Shown: positions 10,540-20,855 of the stretch, in pieces
Layout: the number at the start of each line of letters is the position of its first letter
Position numbering within the stretch: position 1 is the stretch's first letter
Source of the DNA: Rhizobium sp. Q54
GTDB taxonomy: Bacteria > Pseudomonadota > Alphaproteobacteria > UBA2966 > CAIVPW01
DNA length: 43,298 nt
Direction of reading: 5' to 3'
NCBI GenBank assembly: GCA_945889645.1
Contig: CAMDCA010000011.1
Coordinates: forward strand, 1 to 43,298
The notes under the pieces: generated by a model
What the model was told of the DNA's origin: nothing
Databases searched by the model: none
Seen by the model: only the letters and a program-made list of their open reading frames with translations
Program-made: the position numbers and the translations under genes

Positions 10540-10840
10540 GTATCAAACTCCCCCCAAGCGACGGCGCGGCGTTGCGCGCAGGCGCTAACTCTTTCGATGT
10601 ATGAGCCTCCCGGCCCGACATCTTGCCGCGACGAGCCGCAGCCAAACCACGCGTCGCAACCCCTGGCCCGTTCGTCGCCCAACGAACGGCGTCCCTTCGG
10701 CAATCGAACCCCGCCAAGGGACGAGCAACCATTATACGATTTCGTGAACCGTCCAGAACCCCCATACGGGTGGGTCGTGCCTACCCGATCAGGGGGCTCC
10801 TGATACCTACTCCAGAGCCAGGTGGGAATTGTCCCACCCG
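10540..10840 (-). promoter_or_regulatory. Upstream control region of the Calvin-cycle operon
   Basis: About 300 bases without a gene between the LuxR-type regulator and pfp. On the minus strand a perfect TATAAT lies at 10736-10731 with a weak -35 (TTCTGG, 10758-10753, 16-bp spacer), the best promoter candidate for the operon. Upstream of it are three inverted repeats: CGGGT/ACCCG (10767-10771 with 10783-10787), ATCAGG/CCTGAT (10788-10793 with 10799-10804) and GGTGGGA/TCCCACC (10821-10827 with 10832-10838). The last sits just behind the regulator stop and could be a terminator without T-run or an operator. No divergent cbbR is present. Confidence 0.5.
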
Positions 10841-11599
10841 CTAACGCCGCTCCGCAGCGCGACGCGTTGTCGCGGGTAGGGCGGGCTGCTGCTGCGCCGG
10901 GATCGGCATGCGGCCCCCGTCGACCTGGGCCGAAAGGTACGCGTTCACCGCCTGCGTCCGATTGTGCACGCCTAGCTTGCCGTAAAGGTTCTTCAAATGG
11001 AACTTCACGGTGTTGACCGAGATGCCGAGGTCGGCGGCGATGTTGGCCGCCGGCCGGCCCGCGCGCAACAGCGAGAGCAGCTCGCGCTCGCGCTGGGTCA
11101 GGCTGACGAATGGGTCGGTGTCTAGGGTACGGACGTCGAGGTACGGGAACACCATGCGGCCGTCGGCGACGGCGGCGACGGTCTCCAGCAACGCGCCGGC
11201 CGGCGCGCTGTTGGAGCAGAAGCCGGCGGCGCCGAGCGCCATGGCTTGGCCCGGGACGTCGGGGGACGGATCGTCGGCGTAGATGACGATGCGCGGTGCT
11301 TGAGTGCGATCGCGCAGGGCCTGCAACACGCCGCGGCCATCGAGGTATGGCATGATCCAACCGACGACGCCGACGTGGAAAGACAGGCGGTCCACTGCTT
11401 CGACAAAGCGCTCGCCATCGGCGGCCACGGCGACGACGCGGAAGCGCGGGTCGTCGGAAAAGATTCGTTCTAGGCCGGAGATGACGACCGGGTGGCGGTC
11501 CGCAAGCAGGACGCGAATCGGCGCTGCCTTGGCGGCTGGCCGGCGACGCGAGTCGCCCGCGGGCCTGGTCTCGGTCGGGCTCTCGATGCGGGCGGCCAT
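10841..11599 (-). CDS. LuxR/NarL-type regulator with degenerate receiver domain
   Basis: A 252-residue DNA-binding protein with an N-terminal receiver-like domain (about 28-145) and a C-terminal LuxR helix-turn-helix (about 165-222: LTQRERELLSLL, ISVNTVKFHLKNLYGKLGVHNR). In the receiver the normal phospho-accepting Asp is Gly80 (VVGWIMPYLDG), the conserved Lys is Asn130 (GFCSNSAP), and only one acidic-pocket Asp remains (Asp34). Phosphorylation at the usual site is therefore not possible. The ATG overlaps the epimerase stop by one base (TGATG). Being upstream of and co-directional with the Calvin operon, it could control that operon, but there is no direct evidence. Confidence 0.88.
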   Translation of the reverse strand: MAARIESPTETRPAGDSRRRPAAKAAPIRVLLADRHPVVISGLERIFSDDPRFRVVAVAADGERFVEAVDRLSFHVGVVGWIMPYLDGRGVLQALRDRTQAPRIVIYADDPSPDVPGQAMALGAAGFCSNSAPAGALLETVAAVADGRMVFPYLDVRTLDTDPFVSLTQRERELLSLLRAGRPAANIAADLGISVNTVKFHLKNLYGKLGVHNRTQAVNAYLSAQVDGGRMPIPAQQQPALPATTRRAAERR

Positions 11600-12585
11600 C
11601 AGCTCCACAGCTCCGGCGGCGGCGGATGCATCAGGCCGTCGGCGTAGGTGATGCCGGGCTGGCGGTCGTTGGTGAGCAACAGCGGGCCATCCAAGTCGAT
11701 AACTGAGGCGAAGGCGCCGAGCAGGAATGCCGGCGCCATGCCCAGCGACGTGCCGATCGTGCACCCGATCATCACAGCAAGGCCGCGCTCCTGCGCGTAC
11801 TGCACCATGCGGATAGCCTCGGTCAGGCCACCGGCCTTGTCGAGCTTGATGTTGATGTAGTCGTAGCGCCGCGCGGCGGCGGCCACGTCCTGTGCGTCGT
11901 GCACCGACTCGTCGGCGCAGATCGGAACGGCGCGGCCGATCGTGTCGAGGGCCGCGTCCTGTCCGGCCGGCAGCGGTTGCTCGACAAGGCGGACACGCAG
12001 CCGGGAAAGTTCCCCTGCGTATTCTGCGTAGGCGACCGGCGTCCACGACTCGTTGGCATCGACGATCAGTTCGGCATCCGGGCACGCGGCCCGCACGGCG
12101 CGAACGCGGGCCAAATCGTCCGGTCCGCCGAGGTTGAGTTTGAGGAGCGGGCGGTGTGCGTTCTCCGCCGCCACTGCTGCCATCGCCGCCGGCTTGTCGA
12201 GGCCAATGGTGAAGGCGGTGACCAGCGGCTTGGGCTCCGGCAGGCCGGCGAGTTGCCACACGGGAACCCCGCGGCGTTTGGCTTCAAGGTCCCACAGCGC
12301 GCAATCGAGCGCGCTGCGCGCCGCGCCGGGGCCGAGCGCCGTCTGCAGCTGGGCGCGCGTCAGGCTGCCGCTTTCGATCTGCTTGCGCAGGCCTTCGATC
12401 TGGTCGGCGACAGTGTCGAGCTTCTCGCCCAGGCGCCGGTACGGCACGCCTTCGCCGCGACCGCGCACGCCGTCCTGGTGGATCTCGACCATCAGCACCT
12501 CGGCCGCCCACTTGCGGGCACGCGTGATGCTGAACCCACCGCCGATGTCCCAGCTCTCCTCGCGGACAATGAGGCGACGGGTCAT
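11599..12585 (-). CDS. Dipeptide (L-Ala-D/L-Glu type) epimerase, enolase superfamily
   Basis: Enolase-superfamily enzyme expected to epimerise dipeptides such as L-Ala-D-Glu released from murein. The 328-residue protein has the N-terminal capping domain and a barrel with the acid/base lysine in LKLNL (about 148-152), metal ligands in VDANESW, VEQP and CADES, and the second catalytic lysine in NIKLDKAGG. The KxN and DAN pattern is of the muconate-lactonizing/dipeptide-epimerase subgroup. Substrate specificity inside this subgroup varies and cannot be fixed by eye. It is translationally coupled to the regulator that follows. Confidence 0.87.
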   Translation of the reverse strand: MTRRLIVREESWDIGGGFSITRARKWAAEVLMVEIHQDGVRGRGEGVPYRRLGEKLDTVADQIEGLRKQIESGSLTRAQLQTALGPGAARSALDCALWDLEAKRRGVPVWQLAGLPEPKPLVTAFTIGLDKPAAMAAVAAENAHRPLLKLNLGGPDDLARVRAVRAACPDAELIVDANESWTPVAYAEYAGELSRLRVRLVEQPLPAGQDAALDTIGRAVPICADESVHDAQDVAAAARRYDYINIKLDKAGGLTEAIRMVQYAQERGLAVMIGCTIGTSLGMAPAFLLGAFASVIDLDGPLLLTNDRQPGITYADGLMHPPPPELWS

Positions 12586-12610
12586 GTCAGGTGCCGATCC
12601 GCGCGACGGT

Positions 12611-12720
12611 CATCCTCCCCCATACCTTGGGGGAGGGCAGGGTGGGGGAACAATCAGACGGGGAGAGGCGGGATTTCTTCTCCCCCGCCGCGGCCCTCTC
12701 CCGAGGAACGGGGGACGGGG
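12611..12720. repeat. C/G-rich palindromic intergenic repeat cluster
   Basis: A perfect 8-bp hairpin (12614-12621 with 12629-12636, CCTCCCCC/GGGGGAGG) is followed by a second C/G-rich block (about 12677-12720) with CTCCCCCGCC and CCCTCTCCCGAGG pieces facing GGGGGACGGGG. It fills the gap between the reductase end and the epimerase start. Similar blocks recur at 21776-21891 and 25249-25283. It looks like a dispersed REP-like element and may also act as a transcription terminator for the reductase. Confidence 0.55.
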
Positions 12721-12747
12721 TTGCGGTCGAAGGCGTGCCTGCTCCGC

Positions 12748-13755
12748 TCAAAGGTCCAGCACGAGCCGCGGAGTCTTGGAACGGCTGACGCAGGTGCACA
12801 TGCGGTTGGAGGCGCGTTCTGAGTCGAGCAGGACGTTGTCGCGGTGGTCGGGGGTGCCTTCGAGGACCTGGACTGAGCAGGTGCCGCAGGTACCGACGCG
12901 GCAGTCGTAGTCCTGCTTCACGCCGGCGGCGAGGATGGTGTCGAGGATCGAGGCCTTGGCGGGGACCTGGATGACCTGGCCGGTGCTTCTGATCACGACG
13001 TCGACGGGGCCGTCGCCGGGGCGCGGGTCGGGCTTCTTGAAGACCTCGGAGTGGACGGTGCCGTCGGCCCAGCCGAATTGGTGGGCGAGGGCGTGGACCT
13101 CGTCGATCATCCCGTGCGGGCCGCACACGTATACCTGCGTGCCGGGCTTGGGCTGCGACAGGATGGTGCGCAGGTCGATGCCGCCGTTCTTGGGATCGCG
13201 GCCGAACGTGATCTTGGCGGTGGGGCCGAACGCTTCGACCTGCGTCTTCATCGCCATGCGCTGGGGCGAGTGTGCGGTGTAGTGCAGTTCGAACGACTTT
13301 TGGCCTTCGGCGAGCTCGTGCGCCATGGCGAGGATCGGCGCGATGCCGACGCCGCCGGCGACCAGGATGCTGTGCTCGGCGTCCTTGATCTCGAAGAAGT
13401 TCTTCGGCTGGGTGATTTCCAGGATGTAGCCCTGCTTCAGGCGCTCATGCAGGAAGATCGAGCCGCCGGTGCCGTGCTCCTCGTACTGGATCACCAGGTG
13501 GTAGGTGAACGGCTGCTCGGACGGCGGGCTGGCGATGGAGTAGGAGCGCATGGCGCGCTCCTTGCCCGGCAGAATGACGCCGATGTCGATGTGCGCGCCG
13601 GCCTTGAAGGCCGGCAGCGGCGCGCCGTTCTCGGTGGTCAGCTCAAGACCGCGGATGTCTTCTGCCTCCATGCGCAACTTGGCGATGCGCACGCGCAGCA
13701 ACTCCGGCGGCGCCTCGGCGGCCACGGTCGCGGTTGATGCGTTGGTGTCGGCCAC
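12748..13755 (-). CDS. Phthalate-dioxygenase-reductase-like flavoprotein with C-terminal 2Fe-2S domain
   Basis: A 335-residue reductase passing electrons from NAD(P)H through flavin to a plant-type 2Fe-2S cluster and on to an oxygenase or similar partner. In order: flavin-binding barrel with RSYSIAS (about 95-100), nucleotide-binding domain with AGGVGIAPI and YVCGPHGMI, and a C-terminal ferredoxin domain with C-x4-C-x2-C in DCRVGTCGTC and a fourth Cys in RMCTC. A GTG start at 13755 has AGGGAGGG just upstream; a longer frame to 13875 lacks support. No oxygenase subunit is nearby, so its partner is unknown. It is divergent from the next gene. Confidence 0.88.
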   Translation of the reverse strand: MADTNASTATVAAEAPPELLRVRIAKLRMEAEDIRGLELTTENGAPLPAFKAGAHIDIGVILPGKERAMRSYSIASPPSEQPFTYHLVIQYEEHGTGGSIFLHERLKQGYILEITQPKNFFEIKDAEHSILVAGGVGIAPILAMAHELAEGQKSFELHYTAHSPQRMAMKTQVEAFGPTAKITFGRDPKNGGIDLRTILSQPKPGTQVYVCGPHGMIDEVHALAHQFGWADGTVHSEVFKKPDPRPGDGPVDVVIRSTGQVIQVPAKASILDTILAAGVKQDYDCRVGTCGTCSVQVLEGTPDHRDNVLLDSERASNRMCTCVSRSKTPRLVLDL

Positions 13756-14482: not shown

Positions 14483-15310
<828 letters not shown>

Positions 15311-15399: not shown

Positions 15400-18300
15400 A
15401 TGTTGTCTTTGGCGTTCGGCCTGAGTTTCGCGGACCTGTATGACCGTGCCGGCGTCGAACGCGTCGATGCCGCGTTCCTCGGCTGGCTGGGTGACGCTGA
15501 CGCGGCGCTGGCCGATCGCCTCAGGGTGGCGCGGCGCGAGCCGCTGCTGGTCGATCGCAAGGCGCATTCGGACCTGATCCTCCACGTCGCGCCGCACGTC
15601 GATGACTTCGTCGCCAAACTGTTCGGTATCGAGGCAGAGGTCTGCGCGCTGAACGCGAGCATCGACGAACTGTCGCCGCTGTACGCGTGCAAGCGCCTGT
15701 TCGTGCAGCGCCGCGCGGTGAAGAAATACGGTGAGGCGGCGGCGACGGCCGATGGCGCCCAGCTGGCGCGCCAACTCGAGTCGATGCTGGAGCTGATCGT
15801 CACCGGTGCAGAGAGTGAGCTCGAGTTCGCGCGCGTCGTGAACGGCATGCTGAAGAACGAGGCCGCCAACGCGGAAGGCCTGGAGCTCGCGGGCCAGTAC
15901 GCGGCGTGGGCGACGCTGACGCCGGCGGGCAAGACGCGGCATCAGGGCGGCGTGCTGTTCCATGTGCCGGGCAAGATCGAACCCGAGAACATGCTGCCGC
16001 TCGAAGAGCATCACCTGCCGCGCACCGGCAAGGGCGTGCAGGCGTGGGTGCTCGGCGAGCATCACCTGCGGCGGCGCGAGGGCTTCGGCCTGACCGACCA
16101 GGGCCACGACCTGCGCCGCGCGCTCGATCACGCGCACTACTGCATCTTCTGCCACAACCAGGGCAAGGACTCGTGCTCGCGCGGGCTGAAGGACAAGCCT
16201 GCCGCTGGGCAGACCACGGCGCCGTTCAAGAAGAGCCACTTCGGTGTGACGCTCGCCGGCTGCCCGCTGGAAGAGCGCATTTCGGAGATGCACACGGCGA
16301 AGACCGAAGGCCATTCGCTGGCGGCGCTAGCCATCGTCACGGTCGACAACCCAATGTGCGCCGGCACCGGGCATCGCATCTGCAACGACTGCATGAAGGC
16401 CTGCATCTACCAGAAGCAGGAACCGGTCGACATTCCGCAGGTCGAGACGCGCGTGCTCAAGGACGTGCTGGACCTGCCGTGGGGCTTCGAGATCTATTCG
16501 CTGCTGACGCGCTGGACGCCGTTCGATCTCGGGCGCCCGGTGCCCAAGCCGCACACGGGCAAGAAGGTTCTGGTCGCCGGCATGGGTCCGGCCGGCTTCA
16601 CGCTCGCGCACCACCTGATGAACGACGGCCACGCAGTGGTCGGCGTCGATGGGCTGAAGATCGAGCCTCTGCCCGGTGACCTGTCGGGTGTGGACGCGCA
16701 CGGCCGCCGCGTCGCATTCAAGCCGATCCGCGACGTGCAGGAACTCACCGAGCGCCTGGACGAGCGCGTCATGGCCGGCTTTGGCGGCGTCGCCGAGTAC
16801 GGCATCACCGTGCGCTGGGACAAGAACTTCCTCAAGATCGTGCGCCTGCTGCTGGAGCGGCGCAGCGAATTCGCCTTGTTCGGTGCGGTGCGCTTCGGCG
16901 GCACGGTGACCGTGGACGAGGCGTTCGCCATGGGCTTCGACCACGTCGCGCTGGCAATGGGCGCTGGCCGGCCGACAGTGCTGCCGCTGCCGAACGGTCT
17001 GGCGCGCGGCGTGCGCGCCGCGTCGGACTTCCTGATGGCGTTGCAGCTGACCGGTGCGGCGCGCGCTGACACCATCGCCAACATGCAGCTGCGGCTGCCG
17101 GTGGTGGTGATCGGCGGCGGCCTGACCGCGGTCGATACCGCGACGGAGTCACTCGCGTACTACCCGGTGCAGGTCGAGAAGTTCCTCGCGCGCTACGAAG
17201 CGCTGGCGGCAGAGCGCGGCGACAAGGCCGTGCGCGCCAAATGGGACGCCGAAGAGGCCGAGATCGCCGACGAGTTCCTGACCCACGCGCGCGCCATTCG
17301 CGCCGAGCGGGCCGCCGCCGCGCGCGATAAGCGTCCAGCCAAGGTGCGCGAGTTGCTGCAGTCGTGGGGCGGCGTCACCATCGCCTACCGCAAGCGCCTA
17401 ATTGATTCGCCCAGCTATACGCTGAACCACGAGGAAGTGGGCAAGGCGCTAGAGGAGGGCATCTACTTCGCCGAAGGGCTGTCGCCGGTGTCGATCGAAG
17501 TCGACGCGCGCGGCCACGCCGAAGCGATTTCGCTGTCGCGCCAGACTCCGTCCCAGGACGGCGACGGCAAGTTCATCACCTCGGAGACCGTCGAGCGCTT
17601 GCCGGCGCGCAGCATCCTGATCGCCGCCGGCACCCAGCCGAACACGGTTCTGGCGCGTGAGGACAAGTCGTCGGTCGCCATCGATGGACGCTACTTCCGC
17701 GCCGTCGACGAAGCAGGCCGGCCGGTGAAGCCCGAGCACGTGCGTAAGCCGCACGTGCCACAGGTTCTCGCCAGCGTTCGCGGCGACGGCCGCGCCATCA
17801 GCTTCTTCGGCGACCTGCATCCGTCGTTTGCCGGCAATGTCGTCGGCGCCATGGCGAGTGCACGTCAGGGATTCCCGGTGGTGTCCGCCATGTTGGCGAA
17901 GCACGCGCCGACCTCGCAGCAGCCGTTGACGAAGTTCTTCGACGGGCTGCAGGACGCCTGGCGCGCGACGGTGCACGAGGTCATCCGCCTGACGTCGAAC
18001 ATCATCGAGGTGGTGGTGCGGGCGCCGGGCGCGGCGCGCGCGTTCCACCCGGGACAATTCTACCGTCTGCAAAACTTCGAGACGCTGGCGCCCAAGGTGA
18101 ACGGCACGACGCTCGGCATGGAGGGCCTCGCCCTCACCGGTGCGTGGGTCGATCGCGACAAGGGCCTGGTCAGTGTTATCGTGCTGGAGATGGGCGGATC
18201 ATCCGACCTGTGTGCGTTGCTGAAGCCAGGCGAGCCGGTGGTGCTGATGGGCCCGACCGGCGAGCCGACGACCATTGCACCGAAAGAGACGGTGCTGTTG

Positions 18301-18951
18301 GCGGGCGGCGGTCTCGGCAACGCCGTGCTGTTCTCGATCGGCCGGGCGTTCCGCGCCGCGGGCTCCCGCGTGCTGTACTTCGCCGGCTATCGCAATCCGG
18401 CCGACCGCTACCACGTCGCCGATATCGAAGCGGCGGCCGACACCATCATCTGGTGCGTCGACCAGGGTACGGCGTTCAAGCTGGGACGGCCGGGCGACTT
18501 CACGTTCGTCGGCAACATCGTGCAGGCCATGCTGGCCTACGCCGAGGGCAAGCTCGGCCCGGAATCGGGTCGGCCGCTGATCGCCATGACCGACGTGGAC
18601 CGCATCATCACCATCGGGTCCGACCGCATGATGGCGGCCGTGGGGGCGGCCCGGCATGGGGTGCTGAAGCCGTTCCTGAAGCCGGAGCACTTGGCGATCG
18701 CCAGCATCAACTCGCCTATGCAGTGCATGATGAAGGAGATCTGCGCCCAGTGCCTGCAGCCCCACACCGATCCTGAAACGGGCGAGAAAACCACGGTTTT
18801 CTCGTGCTTTAACCAGGATCAACTGCTGGATCATGTCGAGTTTGGGGCGCTAGCCCAGCGGCTGCGGCAGAATTCGGTGCAGGAAAAACTCACGGCGCAA
18901 TGGATCGATCGCTGCCTCGTCACGCTCGCGGTTCGGCCCAAGGTCGCCTGA
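15400..18951 (+). CDS. Single-chain NfnAB-like FAD/Fe-S NAD(P) oxidoreductase
   Basis: A 1183-residue multidomain redox protein. Residues 1-240 are an unrecognised region. Residues 248-335 hold eight cysteines (248, 251, 259, 288, 320, 328, 331, 335) suited to iron-sulfur clusters. Residues 390-830 are a GltD/NfnB-like two-dinucleotide-binding module (VAGMGPAGF at 392; VVIGGGLTAVDTATE at 569). Residues 855-1145 are a PyrK/NfnA-like module (HPGQFYRLQ at 883; LLAGGGLGNAVLF at 966) ending in Cys1109, 1115, 1118 and 1136 for a 2Fe-2S cluster. In two-subunit Nfn these parts are separate and bifurcate electrons between NADH, NADPH and ferredoxin. Here they are one chain. The activity is inferred. 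Confidence 0.8.
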   Translation: MLSLAFGLSFADLYDRAGVERVDAAFLGWLGDADAALADRLRVARREPLLVDRKAHSDLILHVAPHVDDFVAKLFGIEAEVCALNASIDELSPLYACKRLFVQRRAVKKYGEAAATADGAQLARQLESMLELIVTGAESELEFARVVNGMLKNEAANAEGLELAGQYAAWATLTPAGKTRHQGGVLFHVPGKIEPENMLPLEEHHLPRTGKGVQAWVLGEHHLRRREGFGLTDQGHDLRRALDHAHYCIFCHNQGKDSCSRGLKDKPAAGQTTAPFKKSHFGVTLAGCPLEERISEMHTAKTEGHSLAALAIVTVDNPMCAGTGHRICNDCMKACIYQKQEPVDIPQVETRVLKDVLDLPWGFEIYSLLTRWTPFDLGRPVPKPHTGKKVLVAGMGPAGFTLAHHLMNDGHAVVGVDGLKIEPLPGDLSGVDAHGRRVAFKPIRDVQELTERLDERVMAGFGGVAEYGITVRWDKNFLKIVRLLLERRSEFALFGAVRFGGTVTVDEAFAMGFDHVALAMGAGRPTVLPLPNGLARGVRAASDFLMALQLTGAARADTIANMQLRLPVVVIGGGLTAVDTATESLAYYPVQVEKFLARYEALAAERGDKAVRAKWDAEEAEIADEFLTHARAIRAERAAAARDKRPAKVRELLQSWGGVTIAYRKRLIDSPSYTLNHEEVGKALEEGIYFAEGLSPVSIEVDARGHAEAISLSRQTPSQDGDGKFITSETVERLPARSILIAAGTQPNTVLAREDKSSVAIDGRYFRAVDEAGRPVKPEHVRKPHVPQVLASVRGDGRAISFFGDLHPSFAGNVVGAMASARQGFPVVSAMLAKHAPTSQQPLTKFFDGLQDAWRATVHEVIRLTSNIIEVVVRAPGAARAFHPGQFYRLQNFETLAPKVNGTTLGMEGLALTGAWVDRDKGLVSVIVLEMGGSSDLCALLKPGEPVVLMGPTGEPTTIAPKETVLLAGGGLGNAVLFSIGRAFRAAGSRVLYFAGYRNPADRYHVADIEAAADTIIWCVDQGTAFKLGRPGDFTFVGNIVQAMLAYAEGKLGPESGRPLIAMTDVDRIITIGSDRMMAAVGAARHGVLKPFLKPEHLAIASINSPMQCMMKEICAQCLQPHTDPETGEKTTVFSCFNQDQLLDHVEFGALAQRLRQNSVQEKLTAQWIDRCLVTLAVRPKVA

Positions 18952-19055: not shown

Positions 19056-19604
19056 ATGGCGAACTATAATTTCAGCATGTTCACGGTCCTCGTGGTCGAG
19101 GACAACCGCTACATGCGCAGCATGTTGCGCACGCTCCTTTACGCGCTCGGCGTGGGAAACGTGGTGACGGCGGGCGATGGCGGCGAAGCCATCGAACTGC
19201 TGCGCAAGGTCAAGGAGAACCCGACCGAGGCCGGCATCGGCGCGGTCGATATGGTGTTCTCCAATTGGCAGATGGAACCCGTCGACGGCACGATGCTGCT
19301 GAAGTGGGTGCGGCGCAGCAAGGAATCGCCCGACCGCTTCGTGCCGTTCATCATCGTGTCGGGCTACGCCGATTTTCAGCGCGTCAGCGTGTGCCGAGAT
19401 CTTGGCGTGACCGAGTTCCTGGCTAAGCCGTACTCGGTCGACAATTTGCTTGGGCGCCTTACGGCGCTGGTCGAACGTCCGCGTCAGTTCGTGCTGATCG
19501 AATCGTATTTCGGTCCGGATCGCCGCCGCCGTCCTTCACCGACGCCGCTGGAGCGGCGCGTGATGAAAGAATCGGAGATGGAAATCATTTATGACGACCG
19601 CTGA
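19056..19604 (+). CDS. Receiver-domain protein with Asp replaced by Asn
   Basis: A 182-residue CheY-like receiver (about 9-140) with a charged C-terminal tail. The acidic pocket (Glu15, Asp16), Ser102 and Lys124 (LAKPYS) are kept, but the phospho-accepting Asp is Asn70 (VFSNWQM; codon AAT at 19263-19265). It probably cannot take the usual phosphate, or reports a fixed state. Its last 14 bases overlap the start of the Hpt-like gene, showing translational coupling. An internal ATG (residue 8, 19077) is a possible start. It lies 104 bases behind the Nfn-like gene. Confidence 0.88.
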   Translation: MANYNFSMFTVLVVEDNRYMRSMLRTLLYALGVGNVVTAGDGGEAIELLRKVKENPTEAGIGAVDMVFSNWQMEPVDGTMLLKWVRRSKESPDRFVPFIIVSGYADFQRVSVCRDLGVTEFLAKPYSVDNLLGRLTALVERPRQFVLIESYFGPDRRRRPSPTPLERRVMKESEMEIIYDDR

Positions 19605-20241
19605 GTCGCCATCATCGTCCGCACCGACCGGCGACGCGGCGCACGACGCGCGCCGCGTCAAGGTCCGTCTCTTTCGGCTGCGCAACAAGCTGAAGGAAAA
19701 GGCTGGCGTTGGCCGCGCCGCGGCTGGCGACTCTGTGGTCGCGGTGGAGGCGCTGGAAAAGGCGCTCTCCGAGATGAAGAAGTCTCAGGAGGATTATCCG
19801 GACTGGGTGCGCGCAACGCTGACCGAACTCGGCGAGGACCTGAAGTCCGCCACCGACAATGAAGGCGAGGAGCGCCGCAAGCACTTCAAGCACATCGGTT
19901 CCATCGCGCACGAACTCAAGGGCCAGGGCGGCACGTTCGGCTATCCGCTCATCTCGGTGTTCGGAAAGTCGCTCAACGAGTTTTGCGAGCGCAACGACGT
20001 CGGTATCAGCAGCAATCACCTTGAGATCCTAAAGGCGCACATCGACGTGATGCGCGCCGTCATCAAGGACCGCATCTCGGGTGACGGTGGGGACATCGGC
20101 CGCGAGTTGATCGCCGTGCTCCATAGCGCCATCAAGAAGAACGCCGTGACCCAGCAGATGGTCAACAACCCGCCGCCCCCGCCAAAGGCGGTAGCGAAGC
20201 ACACCCTGAAAACGCCCGCGAAGGCGCCGACCAAGCGGTAG
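19591..20241 (+). CDS. Hpt-like (histidine phosphotransfer) protein
   Basis: A 216-residue protein. After a low-complexity start it carries an alpha-helical domain (about 50-180) with AHELKGQGGTFGY at 106-118, matching the HxLKG core of Hpt domains, with His107 as the likely phosphorylated residue. The tail (about 192-216) is Pro/Lys-rich. It overlaps the upstream receiver gene by 14 bases and is followed by ubiX after 5 bases. As the paired receiver lacks its Asp, the phosphate partner must be another protein, or the pair signals by binding alone. Confidence 0.78.
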   Translation: MTTAESPSSSAPTGDAAHDARRVKVRLFRLRNKLKEKAGVGRAAAGDSVVAVEALEKALSEMKKSQEDYPDWVRATLTELGEDLKSATDNEGEERRKHFKHIGSIAHELKGQGGTFGYPLISVFGKSLNEFCERNDVGISSNHLEILKAHIDVMRAVIKDRISGDGGDIGRELIAVLHSAIKKNAVTQQMVNNPPPPPKAVAKHTLKTPAKAPTKR

Positions 20242-20246
20242 GGACG

Positions 20247-20855
20247 ATGGCCAAGCGGCTCATCGTCGGCATCAGCGGCGCTTCGGGCGTCGTCTACGGC
20301 ATCCGCATGCTGGAGACGCTGCGCGATCTCGGGGTCGAAACGCATCTAGTGATGACGCGCTCGGCCGAGGCGACGCTCGCGATTGAGACCAAGCGCAAGG
20401 TCGGCGAGGTGCAGGCGCTGGCGTCCGTCGTGCACGCGGTGACCGACGTCGGCGCCGCGCCTTCCAGCGGCTCGTTCCATACCGACGGCATGGTGGTGGT
20501 GCCGTGCTCGATTCGCAGTCTGTCCGAGATCACCACCGGCGTGACGTCGAGCCTGCTGACGCGGGCCGCCGACGTGACGCTGAAAGAGCGCCGCCGCCTG
20601 GTGCTGATGGTGCGCGAGACGCCGCTGCACACCGGGCACCTGCGCACCATGACCCAGGCGTCGGAGCTCGGCGCCGTGATCTTCCCGCCGGTGCCGGCGT
20701 TCTACGGCTGGCCGCAGAGCATTGACGACATGGTCGACCAGACGGTCGGCCGCGTGCTCGACCTGTTCGGCGTCGAGAATTCCCTGGCCCCCCGCTGGGG
20801 CGCCACGCCGCCGGACGGCGGCAAGGCGATCCGCGCCTTCCCGCGCCGGAGCTAG
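20247..20855 (+). CDS. ubiX: UbiX flavin prenyltransferase
   Basis: Makes prenylated FMN, the cofactor of UbiD-type decarboxylases used in ubiquinone synthesis and aromatic acid metabolism. The 202-residue protein has the flavin-binding start VGISGASGVVYG, MVVVPCSIRSLSEI, LVLMVRETPLHTGHLRTM and PPVPAFY, all family hallmarks. The length is typical. It starts 5 bases after the Hpt stop with a short GGGA ribosome site, and the Sel1 gene starts 2 bases after its stop, so the four genes are probably co-transcribed. No ubiD lies in the window. Confidence 0.95.
   Translation: MAKRLIVGISGASGVVYGIRMLETLRDLGVETHLVMTRSAEATLAIETKRKVGEVQALASVVHAVTDVGAAPSSGSFHTDGMVVVPCSIRSLSEITTGVTSSLLTRAADVTLKERRRLVLMVRETPLHTGHLRTMTQASELGAVIFPPVPAFYGWPQSIDDMVDQTVGRVLDLFGVENSLAPRWGATPPDGGKAIRAFPRRS

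Follow-up and report, generated by a model that had tools for sequence, protein, structure and literature searches.

The window analysed here, that is the whole stretch of 43,298 nucleotides (contig 11 of a 2.33 Mb genome with a completeness of 95.5), encodes a CheY-like receiver that has Asn in place of the phospho-acceptor Asp, that carries an Arg-rich C-terminal tail of the Cle type, and whose gene overlaps that of an Hpt-like protein. We tentatively suggest, with slightly less than even confidence, that the two gene products form a two-protein module, in which a c-di-GMP-controlled, non-phosphorylatable, Cle-like receiver gates its dedicated Hpt partner. Both the tail and the relatives in which receiver and Hpt are fused had been overlooked by the first-pass annotation of this DNA. 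The coordinates of the features are listed in Table 1.

Table 1. Features of the receiver/Hpt pair and of the genes next to it in the window.
Feature	Position	Strand	Basis
MBL-fold hydrolase, most widely conserved gene beside the Asn-receiver/Hpt pair	14483..15310	+	
Redox fusion, 1183 aa, PRK06567-like (glutamate-synthase-beta-like plus electron-transfer part); upstream, kept in the window's family	15400..18951	+	
CheY-like receiver, 182 aa, Asp-less, Cle-type Arg-rich C-terminal tail; start ATG at 19056, stop ending at 19604	19056..19604	+	Pfam, orthologue alignments; start and stop by direct reading
Asn70 codon (AAT), phospho-acceptor site	19263..19265	+	direct reading
Arg114, helix alpha4, at the CleA R111 position by +3 offset	19395..19397	+	alignment
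Arg-rich tail: Arg143, YFGPDRRRR (residues 151-159), degenerate PLERR (164-168)	19482..19559	+	motif comparison, PMC5677366
Receiver/Hpt gene overlap, 14 nt	19591..19604	+	direct reading
Hpt-like protein, 216 aa, His107 in AHELKGQGGTFGYPL	19591..20241	+	Pfam, alignments, model
UbiX-type flavin prenyltransferase, next gene downstream; conserved in family f27 and in that of the window	20247..20855	+	

The receiver domain is clear: Response_reg (PF00072) matches residues 11-135 with 60.4 bits against a cut-off of 30.2, and the tail extends from there to residue 182. Direct reading places Asn70 within VFSNWQM at the canonical Asp position, next to Ser69 (TCC, 19260-19262), and the rest of the pocket is intact (E15, D16, S102 and K124). 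By its sequence the receiver is thus Asp-less with the other pocket residues kept, precisely as the first-pass annotation had described it. This is uncommon, both within the genome, where 28 of 32 receivers have Asp at the aligned column (the others being Asn, in the window's receiver, Ser, Glu and Gly), and in general, as 2.0% of PF00072 domains lack the phospho-acceptor Asp according to a 2025 review (PMC12632262). An AF2 model of the receiver from five rows reached a pLDDT of 43 and was too poor to use. Elsewhere in the window, on the minus strand, a 480-aa frame contains another Asp-less receiver (11180-11512), with Gly at the phospho-site and the pocket DRGAN.

Asn70 is a stable feature of the close relatives. 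The split-pair members number 27, the window's own copy and the later members L154-L160 included, and residue 70 is Asn in 26 of them, Ala in one and Asp in none. Over 28 receivers (these 27 plus L149) the codon is AAC in 17, AAT in 10 and GCC in one; both Asn codons are in use, so the residue persists in spite of codon drift, and Asn with synonymous codon changes is found across seven family codes. A sequencing error, which the first-pass annotation had raised as a possible objection, and equally an oddity of a single genome, are thereby excluded. Asp does occur in more distant relatives, namely in 26 of 27 fused REC-Hpt proteins and in all 33 remaining split pairs.

In the case of the Hpt-like partner, the 14-nt overlap and the candidate phospho-His107 were both correctly called beforehand. 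The codon is CAC (19909-19911) within IAHELKGQGGTFGY, and the surroundings form an HxxKG-type motif (H107-ELKG). His107 is kept in 18/18 readable Hpts of the Asn/Ala clade, as well as in the Hpts beside L154-L160. The window protein passes the Hpt profile (PF01627) with 26.5 bits at a cut-off of 24.6, and three of ten family members scanned, the window's included, do so. As Pfam recognises this Hpt family poorly, the pairing may have drawn little notice. An AF2 model from five sequences has a four-helix core at residues 71-163, with block pLDDT values of 70-87 up to residue 160 and poor ends. The best Foldseek matches of this model are CheA P1 entries (probability 0.99-1.00, E 0.06-0.12). With VIA, the CheA P1 structure 1tqg gave a Z of 13.4 (rmsd 3.3, 99 aligned), where unrelated bundles reach 12.5-13.3; the Rhodobacter CheA3 P1-CheY6 complexes 3kyi and 3kyj gave 11.0-11.1. 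These comparisons are no more than suggestive of a four-helix Hpt-type fold. HmrX of Caulobacter, an Hpt in a motility/holdfast pathway, may be a relative; its model, too, is similar to CheA P1 (PMC11481889). At E 0.001 the genome holds one other Hpt match, in a 671-aa frame that also contains a receiver.

Insight into a possible input comes from the sequence after the receiver domain, RPRQFVLIESYFGPDRRRR..PLERR. Caulobacter Cle proteins bind c-di-GMP by an Arg-rich region with the tandem motif [YF]xGP[DE][RK]R, assisted by an Arg on helix alpha4 (Nesper et al., PMC5677366). Like these, the window protein is a CheY-like receiver with a C-terminal Arg-rich tail, and the CleA residues D67, R111, R153 and R154 correspond at a constant offset of three to N70, R114, R156 and R157. 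CleD E70 and R156 fall on window residues 70 and 156; the spacing from E70 to the CleD alpha4 Arg (R113) is one shorter than that of CleA D67-R111 and of window residues 70-114. The phospho-acceptor is dispensable in CleA, whose function survives D67A and is lost with RR153AA, and the CleD allele tested at this site, E70A, points to a Glu there (PMC5677366).

Over 93 receivers, the window's included, R114, R143, P154, R156 and R157 are invariant and G153 is present in 92. As a control, Arg occupies column 114 in 3 of the 31 scorable receivers (of 32) of the window's genome, again counting the window's own. The strict first tail motif is found in 92/93 receivers, the exception being an Asn member (L053) without the Gly. 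The second half of the tandem is less well kept: two strict copies are present in 21/93 receivers overall and a strict second copy in 0/20 Asn/Ala split receivers, of which 19 retain a basic pair, 19 have lost the GP and one has GPxRR. Because the second half of the defining tandem is degenerate, we call the receiver Cle-like rather than Cle. In CleD, R169A in the second motif half costs about 5-fold in affinity (PMC5677366), so that binding of c-di-GMP may be weak or gone in the window protein. The presence of the tail among relatives is partly circular, as the query contained it; invariant tail arginines beside varying phospho-sites are less easily explained by this query bias. Altogether, the invariance of Arg114, Arg143, Arg156 and Arg157 makes it more likely, as far as sequence can tell, that a ligand input replaces phosphorylation in the Asn receiver. 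The sequence thus does not point to constitutive-state signalling, which the first-pass annotation had proposed. A second tail-bearing receiver of the same genome (contig 10, 15057-15398; L151, L186) lies in a 435-aa frame, with Glu at the phospho-site, a strict tandem Arg-rich motif, no alpha4 Arg at the aligned column and a C-terminal part that by eye looks like a pentapeptide repeat.

To describe the family, the window proteins were used as queries and relatives were drawn from the best matches, a procedure that enriches for Asn. Among 385 genomes of the class, with up to 8 receiver and up to 7 Hpt candidates scored per genome, a receiver match (E 1e-20) was found in 140 and an Hpt match (E 1e-8) in 128; going by the named loci, these class-level relatives are Alphaproteobacteria. 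The 149 loci reduce to 93 different receivers with at least 45 bits, the window's included (L005, L006 and L030, with 27-35 bits, were excluded). An Hpt is adjacent or fused in the fetched stretch for 80 of the 93, nine of these 80 pairs coming from loci fetched with the Hpt query. Twenty-seven pairs lie in one open frame (349-432 aa, Asp in 26 receivers and Glu in one), and 53 are separate neighbouring genes; among these, the 20 receivers closest to the window's carry Asn in 19 cases and Ala in one, and the other 33 carry Asp. In a plasmid collection, two receiver records and one Hpt record matched, the best in Niveispirillum cyanobacteriorum without an annotated gene there.

A joint REC+Hpt tree was calculated for 78 pairs with column 70 removed and a midpoint root; L010 and L053 (Hpt stretch below 90 residues) and the 13 receivers for which no Hpt was found are not part of it, and the later members L154-L160 were not placed in any tree. 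Here the Ala pair groups with 17 Asn pairs (support 99/97), the 27 fused proteins form the neighbouring group (95/76), both groups join at 95/85, and with midpoint rooting the Asp split pairs fall outside. Thus a single loss of Asp and a single fusion are enough, with the reservation that support for the fused branch is modest. A receiver-only tree of all 93 requires three changes of the Asn label, as L149 (genome G067) is placed away from the others and resolution of the backbone is poor. At L149 two adjacent tail-bearing receivers on the minus strand (frames 1151-1798 and 1802-2488) have His and Asn at the phospho-site, with no Hpt in the fetched stretch; its Asn is apparently of separate origin. 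One genome of the window's own family (G006) contains an Asn split pair alongside a fused copy with Asp. The coupling of a receiver, phospho-dead by its sequence, to an Hpt, as first proposed for this locus, is therefore borne out by the conserved Asn, the overlapping genes, the adjacency across several families and the neighbouring fused branch.

What varies across this family is the phospho-sites. Of the 93 receivers, a sample enriched for Asn by the query, 70 retain Asp70, and Hpt His107 is retained in 62 of the 78 pairs readable at this column; in the other 16 it is replaced by Leu, Arg, Asn, Asp or Met. Sorted by receiver residue, His107 is present in 18/18 pairs with Asn or Ala, in 44/59 with Asp and in 0/1 with Glu, so no readable pair combines an Asn/Ala receiver with a lost Hpt His. 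The tree requires 8 changes of the His state and two of the Asp state. For Hpt domains at large, 0.9% lack the His (PMC12632262). The pairing thus seems to outlive phosphotransfer. In one genome (G058; L135, 423-2798) two tandem fused receiver-tail-Hpt genes were observed, with Asp/Arg and Glu/Arg at the phospho-sites. It is conceivable, at the strength of a working idea, that we are dealing with an old alphaproteobacterial family whose Cle-like receiver and Hpt-like bundle stay together in a fixed complex that c-di-GMP reads, phosphotransfer being optional. It is just as tentatively that we suppose one branch of such a complex to have lost the receiver Asp and others the Hpt His, with the link between messenger and relay outliving both.

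In terms of mechanism, the proposed module would work as follows. Judged from its sequence, the receiver would be unable to take phosphate at residue 70. By analogy to CleA, c-di-GMP would bind its tail and remodel the alpha4-beta5-alpha5 face. This face, as adjacency and fusion suggest, would contact the Hpt bundle at a site covering or adjoining His107, and the c-di-GMP level would then set the share of Hpt that is free to relay phosphate between the hybrid kinases of the cell and other receivers. Masking of the Hpt in the c-di-GMP-bound state would be favoured, since it is c-di-GMP-bound CleA that binds its target FliM. The gate reading is slightly weakened by the off-by-one spacing in CleD and by the lack of c-di-GMP enzyme motifs near the Asn-clade pairs: a motif scan for GGDEF/HD-GYP proteins was positive in 0/20 Asn/Ala-clade stretches (window plus 19 loci) and in one of five other stretches, and most genes beside the Asn-clade pairs are metabolic. 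The window's genome as a whole has five GGDEF matches. Beside an Asp-bearing split REC/Hpt pair (L104, 6627-9052) two tandem proteins with HD-GYP ends (HHERLDGxGYP) were observed, with a receiver-like start by eye.

Among the alternatives to this gate, the Asn receiver could be a plain decoy that holds Hpt or phospho-Hpt irrespective of any ligand and thus keeps the relay at a constant level. This we regard as rather unlikely. The conserved Asn in an otherwise kept pocket and the overlapping genes would suit such titration, and inhibitory non-phosphorylated single-domain receivers are known, Osp acting on CckA and, as cited there, FixT (PMC9430884). Left unexplained, however, would be arginines 114, 143, 156 and 157, invariant in 93/93 receivers, and the loss of the Hpt His in 16/78 related pairs. 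Titration of the Hpt, suggested by the first-pass annotation, may still occur, more likely in a c-di-GMP-conditional than in an unconditional form.

The redox fusion upstream matches NF005128 (PRK06567) with 741 bits, below the cut-off of 1072. The order cNMP-binding protein, MBL hydrolase, redox fusion, REC, Hpt, UbiX is found in the window's family at six loci (L001-L004, L090 and L091) and also at L109, but there the Hpt is broken and the MBL frame split. In families f31, f27, f83 and f121, relatives of the alpha and beta parts of 2-oxoacid:acceptor oxidoreductase (names taken from L092) replace the redox fusion. Loci of this oxidoreductase type are L092, L093, L094, L095, L099 and L103, with a GltD-like flavoprotein in five of the six and the MBL gene on the opposite strand in L094; in L098 (f69) such genes lie some 5 kb away. 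In f43 (L100-L102) the pair is preceded by an MBL protein, a histidine-phosphatase-superfamily protein and a MarR regulator, L096 has none of these neighbours, and the fused copies L105-L107 have unrelated ones. The link to the redox fusion noted earlier is thus real in the window's family, but it is the local version of a broader association with an MBL hydrolase and a 2-oxoacid oxidoreductase cluster. A reading as phage defence was discarded, with no PADLOC match at 0.001.

Two of these neighbourhoods contain genes worth recording. The histidine-phosphatase-superfamily protein of f43 (L100, 8137-8685; same place in L101 and L102) is encoded two genes upstream of the Asn receiver; for the L100 protein, no NCBIfam entry matched at 1e-10. 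The same superfamily includes SixA, which has an Hpt as its target. Directly downstream of the Asn pair of L097, at 10573-13205, lie CtrA (424.8 bits, cut-off 350) and FliI (654.4 bits, cut-off 587.45; NCBIfam), as well as, by eye, a FliJ-like gene.

A flagellar setting of this kind brings up a further explanation, namely that the receiver, in the manner of CleA and CleD, has the flagellar switch or some other component as its target, that the Hpt works in an unrelated relay, and that the overlap merely co-ordinates their expression. We consider this unlikely. It is true that Cle proteins bind FliM (PMC5677366), that FliM is present in the window's genome and that the pair adjoins CtrA, FliI and a FliJ-like gene in one genome (G293). 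Against two separate outputs from one transcript, 27 fused REC-tail-Hpt proteins spanning 17 family codes form the neighbouring branch, and the Hpt adjacent or fused for 80/93 receivers argues for more than co-transcription in one lineage.

At the residue level, it appears improbable that the receiver still takes part in the relay through hidden phosphorylation, either after deamidation of Asn70 to Asp or on Ser69. Ser69 is present in an intact remaining pocket, and CheY D57N uses a neighbouring Ser for phosphorylation; yet among the 27 split-pair members residue 69 is Ala in four and residue 70 in one. Asn-Trp is not known as a fast deamidation pair, which counts against the first route. On the other side, an Asn receiver that reverts to Asp has been reported (PMC4395418).

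Finally, that the receiver is a relic being lost is hardly credible, since, in spite of a same-genus genome with a damaged pair and of the Ala member (L042) with the further eroded pocket DEATM, the receiver dN/dS (NG86) is 0.07-0.11 for the 8 computable pairs out of 10 (rough values, several with dS >1) and Asn is kept in seven family codes. The Hpt gave 0.12-0.38 in 10/10 pairs, equally rough with several dS >1. In the damaged case (G001; L010/L109) an internal deletion that changes the frame disrupts the Hpt gene, D16N is found in the receiver and the MBL match extends over two frames, reflecting either decay or assembly trouble.

Cle proteins, c-di-GMP-binding pseudo-receivers in kinases, inhibitory receivers and receiver-Hpt fusions are each already known. 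Compared to the Cle proteins, the window receiver differs by its degenerate second tandem half, by its coupling to an Hpt and by its natural Asn; the word 'Hpt' has 0 occurrences in the main text of PMC5677366. ShkA REC1, a c-di-GMP-binding pseudo-receiver, gates a phosphorelay via the Hpt ShpA to TacA (PMC7010744), which resembles our proposal, although REC1 is a domain of a hybrid kinase and acts on that kinase, whereas the window receiver, whose binding of c-di-GMP is presumed, is free, tailed and paired with an Hpt. The Osp and FixT proteins are likewise non-phosphorylated and receiver-like, and they inhibit alphaproteobacterial relays; unlike the window pair they act on kinases, and the passages on them in PMC9430884 describe neither an Hpt partner nor an Arg-rich tail. 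Osp retains the Asp but has neither the acidic pair nor the Lys, just the opposite of the window receiver (PMC9430884). RitR has an Asn (Asn53) at the phospho-acceptor position, too, but it binds DNA and shows further pocket changes (PMC4395418), whereas the window protein has an intact pocket and no DNA-binding domain. RRHPt fusions, of which a survey counts 312, resemble the fused relatives in joining receiver and Hpt in one protein; an Arg-rich tail is not part of their description in the passages on them in PMC4558063, and the window pair is split and Asp-less. In literature mostly outside subscription journals we found no description of Cle-like receivers that are coupled to Hpt proteins and in which one side or the other loses its phospho-site, which is no proof of absence.

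According to the 2025 review, the switching mechanisms of bacterial pseudo-receivers remain a mystery (PMC12632262). The family described here offers a natural comparison set in this respect, with Asp and Asn versions, split and fused versions, and partners with and without the His. It also leads to a testable proposal, in which the c-di-GMP level is written directly into a phosphorelay. Cle-type proteins, which PMC5677366 treats as partners of the flagellar motor, may therefore have a second kind of partner. If the idea of a fixed complex is true, the receiver/Hpt pair would be a direct physical junction between c-di-GMP and a phosphorelay outside histidine kinases.
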